The notes under the pieces were generated by a model. That model ran no database searches, was not told the origin of the DNA, and saw only the letters and a list, made by a program, of their open reading frames with translations. 44,619 bases of DNA from Candidatus Margulisiibacteriota bacterium (GTDB lineage: Bacteria; Margulisbacteria; WOR-1; O2-12-FULL-45-9; XYB2-FULL-48-7): positions 1 to 44,619 of the forward strand of contig JAQVPA010000006.1 of NCBI GenBank assembly GCA_028702315.1, written 5' to 3'. Position 1 is the stretch's first letter; each line of letters starts with the position of its first letter. Made by a program: the position numbers and the translations under genes. Positions 10,887-41,202 of this stretch are shown piece by piece.

Positions 10887-11942
10887 ATGTTATACATTTT
10901 AGCTTTATTGGCAGCCCTATTTTTTTCGCTAATCTTTACTCCCATAGCCAAACACTTCGCCGCAAAATTTGGCGTTTTGGACAAGCCCGGTTTTCGCAAG
11001 ATCCACGCAAAGCCGATGCCATTAACCGGCGGTGAAGCGATCTTCCTGGCCTTTGCCCTGACGGCTGTTATATTCAGCCAAATATCAAGGGAGATCGCCG
11101 GTATCCTGCTGGTCGGCCTAGGCTTTATCGCCTTTGGCTTGCTGGACGATGCTGGGATCAAGATGCGCGCACGCTACAAAATTTGGTCGCATCTTTTATT
11201 AGCTTGCGCTTTTGCCTATTTTACTGGCATCCATTTTTCGTTTTTCAGATACGAATTGATCAACTGGCTGTTGACCGTCTGTTTTATCACTTTTATGACT
11301 AATTCAATGAATATGCTTGATGGAATGGATGGGCTGGTTTCCGGTGTCTCGTTCCTATCAGCTGGCTTCTTTGCCGTTCTTGCCTTTAATAGCGGGCAAA
11401 ATGATCTTATTATGCTGTCTGTCATTATTATGGGAGCAACGCTTGGTTTCTTAAAATACAACTTTAATCCCGCTTCAATCTTTCTTGGCGAAGCCGGCTC
11501 AACCTTTCTTGGTTACATCCTGGCTGTGCTGGCGATCAAACTGAATGTTTTTGGCCTCTGGAACGTAGCGTTATCGCTGGGAATTGAAAGGCTCCAGCTG
11601 ATTTCATTCATCATCCCTTTGATTGTCCTTGGCATTCCAATCTTTGACACATATTTTGTCTTTGCTAACCGGTTTCTGCATCGGGTCAAATTCAGCCAAC
11701 CAGGCAAAGATCATTCCCATCACCGTATCCATTTGATGGGCTTTTCACAAAAATTTACTGTTCTGACGCTGTATGCCGTCCAACTTATCCTGGGAATGAT
11801 CGCCCTGGCAATGATCAGGTCTGATGTCCAGCAATTCTTTGCCTTATTGGTGATCGTGGCGATCTTTTTTGTCAGCTTTTCGGTTTTCCTCTCACGCATC
11901 AAAGTTTACTCTAATGAACCCAAAAACAGCCCAGTTAGCTGA
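10887..11942 (+). CDS. WecA/MraY-family undecaprenyl-phosphate sugar-1-phosphate transferase
   Basis: Polytopic; GFRKIHAKPMPLTGG, NMLDGMDGL, LGEAGSTFLGY, HSHHR motifs; ATG at 10887 preferred over TTG at 10884. Confidence 0.88.
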   Translation: MLYILALLAALFFSLIFTPIAKHFAAKFGVLDKPGFRKIHAKPMPLTGGEAIFLAFALTAVIFSQISREIAGILLVGLGFIAFGLLDDAGIKMRARYKIWSHLLLACAFAYFTGIHFSFFRYELINWLLTVCFITFMTNSMNMLDGMDGLVSGVSFLSAGFFAVLAFNSGQNDLIMLSVIIMGATLGFLKYNFNPASIFLGEAGSTFLGYILAVLAIKLNVFGLWNVALSLGIERLQLISFIIPLIVLGIPIFDTYFVFANRFLHRVKFSQPGKDHSHHRIHLMGFSQKFTVLTLYAVQLILGMIALAMIRSDVQQFFALLVIVAIFFVSFSVFLSRIKVYSNEPKNSPVS

Positions 11943-12693
11943 AGTTTTCTCCTCCATCCAAGGGGAGGGGATTTACGTTGGTGAAAGGCAGTTCTTTGTC
12001 CGTTTTGCCGGCTGCAATTTATCGTGCCAGTACTGCGATTCCCCTCAGGCGCTTGAAATAAAGCCTAATTACCGCTTTGAGGCTGTCCCCGGCGCCCATA
12101 AGTGGGAGAGCAGGGGAAACCCGGTAACAACGCCGCAGCTAGTAGAATTACTAACTTCGCTGGATAAACCTGGTTTAGATCATTCTTTAAGCTTAACGGG
12201 TGGCGAACCGCTCTTACAGGTCGAATTTCTCAAAGAGTTCTTACCAACAGTGAAAGCGGCGCTCAAGCTTCCTATTTACCTGGAAACCAACGGCACTCTG
12301 CCGGAACATCTTAACGAGGTGATTGATCTGGTCGATATTATCGCCATGGATATCAAATTACCTAGCCTTGCCTACCGGCAGGCAGGCGCAACAGGTTTAT
12401 CACCTTATTGGAAAGAACATAAGAAGTTCTTGGAGATCGCTTATTTGAAAGAAGTATTCGTCAAGATTGTGGTTGCTAAAGAAACAAAAATAATGGAGAT
12501 CGATGAGGCGGCCAAACTGATCGCCGCGGTCGATGAAAAGATACCGCTGGTCTTGCAGCCGGTCACGCCGCATGGCCAGATCAAACATCGTCCGGGCGCT
12601 GAAGAGATACTGGCGTTCCAGGCGACAGCAAAGAGAAAGCTAAAAACTGTAAGGGTTATCCCGCAAATCCACAAACTACTCGGGCTTAGCTAA
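11914..12693 (+). CDS. queE: 7-carboxy-7-deazaguanine synthase (QueE-like radical SAM)
   Basis: FSSIQGEGIYVGERQFFVRFAGCNLSCQYCDSP; SLTGGEPLLQ; LETNGTLPE; MDIKLPS; the internal ATG at 11914 gives the expected N-terminus. Confidence 0.92.
   Translation: MNPKTAQLAEVFSSIQGEGIYVGERQFFVRFAGCNLSCQYCDSPQALEIKPNYRFEAVPGAHKWESRGNPVTTPQLVELLTSLDKPGLDHSLSLTGGEPLLQVEFLKEFLPTVKAALKLPIYLETNGTLPEHLNEVIDLVDIIAMDIKLPSLAYRQAGATGLSPYWKEHKKFLEIAYLKEVFVKIVVAKETKIMEIDEAAKLIAAVDEKIPLVLQPVTPHGQIKHRPGAEEILAFQATAKRKLKTVRVIPQIHKLLGLS
12367..12387 (+). repeat. 21-nt in-frame palindromic segment within queE (encodes LAYRQAG)
   Basis: CTTGCCTACCGGCAGGCAGGC; 16-bp near-perfect palindrome TGCCTACCGGCAGGCA at 12369-12384; codon-aligned between LPS and ATGLSPYW. 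Confidence 0.7.
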
Positions 12694-15051: not shown

Positions 15052-15098
15052 CCCCACATTAAAATGTGGGGAATTATTCTGCGGATTTTAATCCGCAG
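15052..15098. repeat. Two tandem perfect 20-bp palindromes in purS-purB spacer
   Basis: CCCCACATTAAAATGTGGGG (15052-15071) and CTGCGGATTTTAATCCGCAG (15079-15098) separated by AATTATT. Confidence 0.9.
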
Positions 15099-24577: not shown

Positions 24578-24640
24578 AATAGAGTAACGCGATACGGGTA
24601 ACGCGTACATTGAACGCGTTACGCATTACTCTATTCGCGC
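24578..24640. repeat. Type-A interspersed palindromic repeat, fhs-folE spacer
   Basis: GAATAGAGTAACGCGatacggGTAACGCGTACATTGAACGCGTTACGCATTACTCTATTC; imperfect dyad. Confidence 0.8.
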
Positions 24641-28590: not shown

Positions 28591-29250
28591 CTATCTCCCT
28601 TTCAGGATAGCTTCCATCATTATTAAGTCTTCGGGGGCCGTCACTTTGATGTTTTCATACGACCCCATTACCATTTTAACCGGTTTCCCCAGTTTTTCAA
28701 CCGCCATCGCGTCATCGGTGACCGCGCCTCTTAATTTCGCGTAAGCGTTCCTGATCAACGCTGCTTTAAATACTTGCGGTGTTTGGGCCTGCCATAGTTT
28801 GTCGCGATTCATCGTACGCGTTACTCTATTCTCGTTACGCATTACTTCTTTAATCGTATCCTTCACCGACACCCCAACCACAACCGCCCCATGCTTTCTT
28901 GCTTCCTTGATCGATCGCTCAATTATCCCGGTTGTAACCGCCGGGCGGGCGCCGTCATGGATCAAAACGATTTCGGCTGAACCAGGTAAAGCCGCCAAGC
29001 CGTTCCTGACCGAATCCTGCCGTTCCGCGCCTCCAGCAACGATACCGATGATCTTTTTTTTCGGCAATTTCTTCGCCAGTTCCATTTGCCCGGGCGCGAC
29101 AACCAGGATTATCCCGTCGATCGGCCGGGTATTTTGAAAAGCGGCCAGGGTCCAAGCCAGCATCGGCCGCCCGGCAATTTTCAGGAACTGCTTCGGCTTC
29201 CCCATTCTTTTGCCTTTCCCACCAGCAACTATAATTGTAATATTTTTCAT
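28591..29250 (-). CDS. ispD: 2-C-methyl-D-erythritol 4-phosphate cytidylyltransferase
   Basis: IIVAGGKGKRMGKPKQFL; VLIHDGARP; DKLWQAQTPQVF; an alternative ATG exists at 29259. Confidence 0.93.
   Translation of the reverse strand: MKNITIIVAGGKGKRMGKPKQFLKIAGRPMLAWTLAAFQNTRPIDGIILVVAPGQMELAKKLPKKKIIGIVAGGAERQDSVRNGLAALPGSAEIVLIHDGARPAVTTGIIERSIKEARKHGAVVVGVSVKDTIKEVMRNENRVTRTMNRDKLWQAQTPQVFKAALIRNAYAKLRGAVTDDAMAVEKLGKPVKMVMGSYENIKVTAPEDLIMMEAILKGR
28810..28847 (-). repeat. Type-A repeat copy inside ispD coding sequence
   Basis: Minus strand: GTAATGCGTAACGAGAATAGAGTAACGCGTACGATGAA, matches intergenic copies. Confidence 0.8.
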
Positions 29251-29282
29251 TGTACGCATTACGCGTTACGCGTTACTCCATT
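29248..29282 (-). repeat. Type-A repeat half-unit filling the spacer between M24 peptidase stop and ispD start
   Basis: Minus strand: GAATGGAGTAACGCGTAACGCGTAATGCGTACAATGAA; includes the ispD ATG. Confidence 0.8.
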
Positions 29283-29947
29283 CAAGTCAACACCTTGCAT
29301 CCGGTCTTCGTCACCAAAACCATATCCTCGATCCGCAAGCCACCCCAACCCTTAACGTATATCCCAGGCTCGACCGTAATGACCATCCCGGCCTTTAATT
29401 TCTGGCGGCTCTTGAGCGAGATGCGCGGCGCTTCATGCACTTTCCGGCCGACACCGTGGCCGGTCGTATGGATAAAACATTCTCCCGGACACTTTTTTTC
29501 GCTGATATGGCAGTCAACAAAACAATGTTTTTTGATTATATCCCTGGCCGCCAGATCGACCCAGCGACACCAAACCCCGTCTTTCACCACGCTGATCGCC
29601 CTTTTCTGCGCCGCCAGGACCGTATTATAGAGATGGTTGTATCGACCAGTCGGCTTCCCGATAAAAAAGGTCCGGGTTATGTCGGAACAATAGCCCTGAT
29701 ATTTCGCGCCCAGATCAACGACAACCTGCTCCCCTTTTTTGATCTTTTTGCCGGTCGGCTTGGCATGGGGATCGAGCGACCTCTTGCCCGACGCCACAAT
29801 AATGTCAAATGACAGGCTGGCCCCGGCGGAAGTTATTTCGTAGATTATCCAATCAGCAATCTCTTTTTCTGTCTGGCCCGGCCGGATACGGAGAGAGCGC
29901 ATTACGCGGCTCGCTATTTCGATCGCCTTCTTTTGCGCGGGCTTCAT
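29282..29947 (-). CDS. M24 family metallopeptidase (aminopeptidase P/Xaa-Pro dipeptidase-like)
   Basis: VVDLGAKYQGYCSDITRTFFIG; HTTGHGVGRKVHEAPRIS; ITVEPGIYVKGWGGLRIEDMVLV. Confidence 0.9.
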   Translation of the reverse strand: MKPAQKKAIEIASRVMRSLRIRPGQTEKEIADWIIYEITSAGASLSFDIIVASGKRSLDPHAKPTGKKIKKGEQVVVDLGAKYQGYCSDITRTFFIGKPTGRYNHLYNTVLAAQKRAISVVKDGVWCRWVDLAARDIIKKHCFVDCHISEKKCPGECFIHTTGHGVGRKVHEAPRISLKSRQKLKAGMVITVEPGIYVKGWGGLRIEDMVLVTKTGCKVLT

Positions 29948-38076: not shown

Positions 38077-38367
38077 ATGACAAAAAGCACTCCTGACCAA
38101 GAAGATTCATACGAGAAATATAAAAAACTGATTGAAGGCCAAGAGCCCGGGGAGTGCCAAGCTTGCGGTGGAGTACTGGAGCTGGAAAAGGTCAATCTCG
38201 AAGATTACCAGAACGGCAAGCTTTATATGATGGAAGGCGTTCCCGCTTATGTCTGTCAGGACTGTAGCGAAGTCTGGGTCCCCGAACCGATCATGGCGGA
38301 ATTTGAAAAGATGATCGATACGGCCAAGCATAAGATTTCGCCCAAGCTCAAAAGACAAAAAAAGTAA
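38077..38367 (+). CDS. YgiT-type zinc-finger protein (MqsA N-terminal-like)
   Basis: GECQACGGVLELEK...YVCQDCSEVWVPEPIMAEFEKMI: paired CxxC motifs. Confidence 0.85.
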   Translation: MTKSTPDQEDSYEKYKKLIEGQEPGECQACGGVLELEKVNLEDYQNGKLYMMEGVPAYVCQDCSEVWVPEPIMAEFEKMIDTAKHKISPKLKRQKK

Positions 38368-38430
38368 TGCGAATAGGGTAATGCGTAACGCGTACAATGA
38401 ACGCATTACGCATTACGCGTTTCGCTATTC
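38366..38430. repeat. Type-A interspersed palindromic repeat between ygiT-like gene and guaB3
   Basis: GCGAATAGGGTAATGCGTAACGCGTACAATGAACGCATTACGCATTACGCGTTTCGCTATTC; begins at the ygiT stop codon. Confidence 0.85.
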
Positions 38431-38451
38431 TTTAAAAAAGGAGAAGTAAAA

Positions 38452-41174: not shown

Positions 41175-41202
41175 AATTCCCCACACTTAAGTGTGGGGAA
41201 TT
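41175..41202. terminator. 28-bp perfect palindrome between convergent guaA and mltG (probable bidirectional terminator/repeat)
   Basis: AATTCCCCACACTTAAGTGTGGGGAATT followed by ATTTTGTT. Confidence 0.75.

Follow-up and report, generated by a model that had tools for sequence, protein, structure and literature searches.

Palindromes within protein-coding sequences are known chiefly from Rickettsia and Wolbachia, where they may reflect the gradual decay of intracellular genomes. The Rickettsia palindromic elements (RPEs; Ogata et al. 2000, as reviewed in PMC2229807 and PMC3767692) are quoted in these reviews as 84-150 bp long, and a CGTC tag at one end has been reported for the RPE of R. conorii (PMC3733652). 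MITEs are small non-autonomous repeats that can sit in-frame inside genes (PMC2229807). Further systems used for comparison were the GTAG/CGTC REPs and the RAYT-associated REPs (PMC3733652, PMC8266576).

The palindrome analysed here lies in-frame in queE of a WOR-1 genome. The window (the whole stretch of DNA analysed, 44,619 nt) is contig C29 of a 1.53-Mb genome that is 90% complete. Like the Rickettsia and Wolbachia elements, the WOR-1 palindrome is dispersed in spacers, in RNA genes and, in-frame, in conserved genes, and it is absent from orthologs; it is apparently tolerated and open in the frame used, and both groups have queA (tRNA ribosyltransferase-isomerase) among the affected genes. 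Unlike RPEs, it measures 20-21 nt rather than 84-150 bp, is a near-perfect palindrome without a CGTC tag, is open in every frame on both strands, resides in a non-Rickettsiales lineage and recurs as the same 20-mer in several phyla. As it lacks the length and the tag of an RPE, it was not classified as one. The element shares with MITEs its small size and ability to sit in-frame in genes, but it is far shorter, has no internal region between terminal repeats and, as judged from tRNA paralogs, produces no target-site duplication. It resembles the REPs in size, hairpin shape, high copy number and a location mostly outside genes with occasional in-frame copies, and differs from them in the lack of a GTAG or CGTC tag and in its recurrent insertion at one tRNA D-loop region. 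The literature searched contained no description of such repeats in WOR-1 and no match to the core DNA or the derived peptides.

The insert in queE

The intact open reading frame at 11914-12693 (+ strand) was assigned to queE, encoding the radical SAM enzyme 7-carboxy-7-deazaguanine synthase, by PDB and NCBIfam matches; the best NCBIfam matches are QueE models, all below the NCBIfam curated cut-offs, and the radical-SAM cysteines are conserved (CNLSCQYC cluster). The original prediction, an in-frame 21-nt palindromic segment encoding LAYRQAG, was confirmed: QueE residues 151-157 are encoded by the codon-aligned block CTTGCCTACCGGCAGGCAGGC at 12367-12387 (+ strand), in which the 16-bp near-perfect palindrome that had been noted, TGCCTACCGGCAGGCA, occupies positions 12369-12384 and is present as a single copy in the window. 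Placed by the family consensus, the inserted element reads CCTTGCCTACCGGCAGGCAGG and spans 12366-12386 (+ strand), so that the empty site would be AG/CGCA, with the insert boundary ambiguous by one base. Relative to the 20-bp consensus CCTGCCTGCCGGCAGGCAGG, this copy contains an additional T in the 5' arm and a single G-to-A substitution, and it corresponds to the 21-nt form described below with N = T and one further change.

As stated in the original prediction, the family runs straight from MDIKLPS into a TG motif. In an alignment of 22 QueE proteins, exactly the seven codons in question were missing from all 21 relatives (42-71% identical), which show a seven-residue gap opposite LAYRQAG and read MDIKLPS-ATG. 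The relatives were located by name and derive chiefly from WOR-1/Saganbacteria and Margulisiibacteriota genomes; comparison of the queE DNA with that of G005 and G017 gave a clean 21-nt difference. An AlphaFold model based on the 22-sequence alignment (mean pLDDT 89.6) has pLDDT values below 50 at residues 154-161, between a strand (141-146) and a helix (165-175). Because these values occur in an otherwise confident model, the insert is predicted to form a flexible loop that follows directly on the DIKLPS motif. Since this motif immediately precedes the insert, an effect on QueE activity is possible, and the insert is probably near-neutral or mildly harmful. A search of the window's genome did not reveal a second full-length QueE, so that, if the pathway works, this enzyme serves it.

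An adaptive insertion specific to QueE, with an incidental likeness of its DNA to the repeat, would be in line with the position of the insert next to a conserved motif and with the copies held by queA and queC of the same genome. Yet the queE DNA matches 19 of the 20 positions of the genome-wide element and has one inserted base in addition, and the same kind of insert is found in unrelated genes and in other frames, which makes such an origin barely credible.

Sequence and distribution of the palindrome

In G000, the symmetry of the copies extends over 20 bp, forming a perfect palindrome with the consensus CCTGCCTGCCGGCAGGCAGG, whose DNA hairpin has a predicted energy of -8.0 kcal/mol. Many copies have an additional base in one of the arms, which yields the 21-nt form CCNTGCCTGCCGGCAGGCAGG in either orientation. 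Among 119 copies from five genomes, 54 are clearly 21 nt and 31 clearly 20 nt long, 32 can be read either way and two are degenerate. The core element is the 20-bp perfect palindrome, of which the queE copy is a 21-nt variant; in this respect, the original prediction was refined. The copies have variable flanks and show neither a CGTC tag at one end nor a GTAG tetranucleotide at either end. By direct reading, the consensus is devoid of stop codons in any frame on either strand, whatever the identity of N, so that copies with a net length divisible by three add seven residues and leave the protein otherwise intact. Depending on the frame, the added peptide is LPAGRQG, xACRQAG or CLPAGRx.

In the 1.53-Mb genome, the 14-bp core GCCTRCCGGYAGGC occurs at 23 sites (28 when one mismatch is allowed, compared with none for a reversed-pattern control), a number far in excess of chance, and the exact sequence TGCCTGCCGGCAGGCA at 20 sites. 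Of 31 genomes of the class, 25 contain the 16-mer, with 1-45 copies each, whereas 43 genomes from the rest of the phylum have none. Within the phylum, the 14-bp pattern is confined to the window's class (0-60 copies per genome), apart from one stray copy in G031. Outside the phylum, the exact 20-mer was detected in 8 of 309 genomes, three of which contain 16, 12 and 6 copies, and additionally in 33 IMG/VR stretches; the other-phylum copies inspected lie mostly in spacers and several in tRNA fragments. In one such genome (G276:C2:1199500-1230500; L296, L297), seven 20-mer copies are located within 29 kb, several of them inside a longer repeated block (gtcattccgagcaccagcgag...).

The earlier proposal of a small palindromic element, RPE-like but shorter, that came to lie in a coding gene with the frame intact is thus supported, as homologs are free of the block and the palindrome is repeated genome-wide in genes and spacers; this is the opposite of the outcome that would have refuted it, namely an equivalent segment of unrelated DNA in the homologs and a palindrome found nowhere else in the genome. 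Set against empty orthologs or paralogs, the copies are discrete insertions of 20 or 21 nt; they are numerous per genome, patchy in copy number between genomes and variable in site, frame and orientation, and they occupy spacers as well as tRNA genes and conserved protein-coding genes. The queE segment is very probably a copy of a mobile, non-coding 20-21 bp palindrome that has spread through genomes of the WOR-1/Saganbacteria class.

The data consist entirely of assemblies, most of them metagenomic, and an assembly or sequencing artefact was considered as an explanation. It has next to no probability, given that the same element was seen at differing loci of many independently assembled genomes, a 2.85-Mb contig (G276) among them, and that there are diverged copies and context-dependent 20- and 21-nt forms. 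The presence of an identical palindrome in many places, often spacers, and in several phyla would also be consistent with a functional DNA motif (an uptake sequence, a protein-binding site or half of a terminator) that is selected wherever it arises. However, uptake sequences, as usually described, arise through substitution in situ, and the palindrome forms discrete insertions of 20 or 21 nt at otherwise unchanged sites and varies from 0 to 60 copies among related genomes; we therefore consider a functional motif very improbable.

Copies in reading frames and tRNA genes

In five genomes of the class, 27 copies lie in-frame within conserved genes (named by NCBIfam or ortholog comparison): queE, queA, queC, metH, lnt and glpK in the window's genome; holB, glmM, prmC, priA, cysS, trmD, polA, hemB, gcvPA and pabB in G004; hemW in G008; miaB, purF, hemW, nnrE and mnmA in G012; and recG, fhs, miaB, hom and hisS in G021. 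Compared with copy-free orthologs, the filled genes are longer by 21 nt (seven codons), in differing frames and with the element in either orientation; these comparisons are between species rather than strains, with empty orthologs being about 60-80% identical. Where the flanks align well (queE, queC, glpK, holB, glmM, gcvPA), the insert amounts to exactly seven codons, which also fits polA and prmC, whose flanks are more divergent. In glpK, the flanking codons TCA AAA GTC/AAA AAT are identical in the empty ortholog of G005; for gcvPA, glmM and polA, the filled genes were compared with the empty sites of the same-genus genome G008 and are longer by 21 nt. The holB copy is a 20-mer accompanied by a compensating T (CTTTCC versus CTTCC) about 10 nt downstream. 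Copies inserted in different phases yield different peptides (LPAGRQG, PACRQAG, CLPAGR), and this speaks against selection acting on a peptide.

Queuosine genes account for three of the six named in-frame copies of the window's genome (queA, L012; queC, L059; and the window's queE), and queA appears to hold two further repeat-derived inserts. The queuosine pathway is possibly under relaxed constraint. The window also contains heptanucleotide tandem arrays (24598-24639, 28808-28838, 29245-29286 and 38361-38433), and such arrays are found in-frame in genes as well (L060, L062, L064, L100, L156, L160); their units differ (TACGCGT, AGTTCGG, CCGAAAT, ACTTTTG). In priA and hemB, the same gene position carries a different heptad in a same-genus species.

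In pairs of tRNA gene paralogs, the insertion measures exactly 20 nt and lies in the 3' part of the D-loop (L256, tRNA-Leu; L300; L283). The L256 copy (G012), GGCAGA[20]CACAAGGGACTT, adjoins the intact paralog GGCAGACACAAGGGACTT, and the 20-nt inserts of L300 (G276) and L283 (G299) are located at the A/GAG junction closing the D-loop. Comparison of the tRNA paralogs revealed no target-site duplication beyond an ambiguity of one base. Truncated or degenerate tRNA genes bearing copies (L142, L106, L256, L283, L300, L011:1475-1540 and the minus strand of L063 at ~1472-1535) come from several phyla, and most of them adjoin an intact tRNA. All D-loop cases have the insert in the same 3' loop region; two tRNA-Pro cases have it in their 3' halves near the T-arm. 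A complete 92-nt tRNA-Met gene on an IMG/VR contig (L135:2239-2330; ARAGORN, Rfam) contains the 20-bp palindrome as an extended variable arm.

Forms that can only be read as 21 nt make up 14 of 22 coding copies but 5 of 60 others in four genomes (Fisher p = 9e-7), the status "not coding" having been assigned by absence of evidence, so that some of the latter may be coding; for G000 and G004 alone, the same test gave p = 2e-5. This strong enrichment of 21-nt forms in coding genes indicates that the frame is kept largely by selection. A 21-nt length built into the element was rejected, since tRNA paralogs give exactly 20 nt and 21-nt forms are enriched in genes. The original prediction is thereby refined further: frame preservation reflects mostly selection, not a fixed length of 21 nt. 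An exception is G021, in which 35 of 37 copies have 21 nt in every context and about half lie within a larger GGAACC...GGTTCC repeat; a 21-nt version was thus itself amplified there.

Possible mobilisation and significance

In size and shape, the element fits a REP sequence, which a REP-associated tyrosine transposase (RAYT/TnpA_REP) encoded in the same genomes could mobilise. In genomes of the class, palindromes other than this one (CCCCACACT-type and GGAACC-type inverted repeats) flank Y1 transposases, one copy of the element is found 40 bp upstream of a Y1 match (G012, L078) and another ~85 bp downstream of one (G025, L089), and about half of the copies in G021 are inside a GGAACC-type repeat. 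Nonetheless, the element is found within 100 bp of only 2 of 20 Y1 loci, its copy number does not correlate with the number of Y1 (PF01797) genes (31 genomes; Spearman 0.14, p = 0.47), and PF01797 transposases are absent from the window's own, 90%-complete genome. The GTAG tag is lacking at both ends, and the palindromes flanking Y1 genes differ in sequence from the element. Mobilisation by these transposases is accordingly doubtful, and the CCCCACACT-type and GGAACC-type palindromes beside several Y1 genes of the class look like those genes' own REPs.

Other repeats of these genomes were recorded in parallel. A second palindrome, CCCCACATTAAAATGTGGGG / CCCCACACTTAAGTGTGGGG, is located at positions 15052-15071 and 41179-41198 of the window; as palindromes of this type flank Y1 transposase genes in relatives (L079, L080, L089, L092), it probably represents the REP of a RAYT of the class. 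The larger inverted repeat GGAACC(T)GCGAG-TGAAC-CTCGCGGTTCC was seen in L226-L280 (G021), L246, L260, L078 (G012) and L099, upstream of hemW; the 21-mer is often nested in its loop, and it sometimes lies in-frame in genes (miaB, two families). GGAAACC-type repeats are present downstream of several Y1 genes.

For the 20-21 nt palindrome, genome-level tests of the mechanism were exploratory. The element may be copied or moved as a single-stranded hairpin, on which a putative enzyme would act in trans, and it would insert without target duplication. Selection would then sort the copies by frame: genes would retain the 21-nt forms and those 20-nt forms that come with a compensating base, and 20-nt forms are common outside genes. 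A general preference for hairpin loops was dismissed on the basis of a perfect-arm test, which is blind to the bulged outer GGAACC repeat and showed no more than a slight excess, confined to three genomes. Tentatively, and with less than even confidence, we propose that a single 20-bp perfect palindrome is one of the smallest known mobile DNA units, entering spacers, a fixed tRNA D-loop region and reading frames across several phyla without target duplication, by means of a mobiliser not yet described.

Annotators should regard the peptides LPAGRQ, ACRQAG and CLPAGR as element-derived where they occur in proteins encoded by these genomes. The contrast between the 20-nt unit in tRNA genes and the 21-nt forms in reading frames makes frame selection directly visible. 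A candidate class outside the Rickettsiales now hosts in-frame coding palindromes, and the occurrence of a much smaller, stop-free palindrome in-frame in priA, polA, cysS, glpK, miaB, the que genes and others shows this route of protein insertion to be more general.
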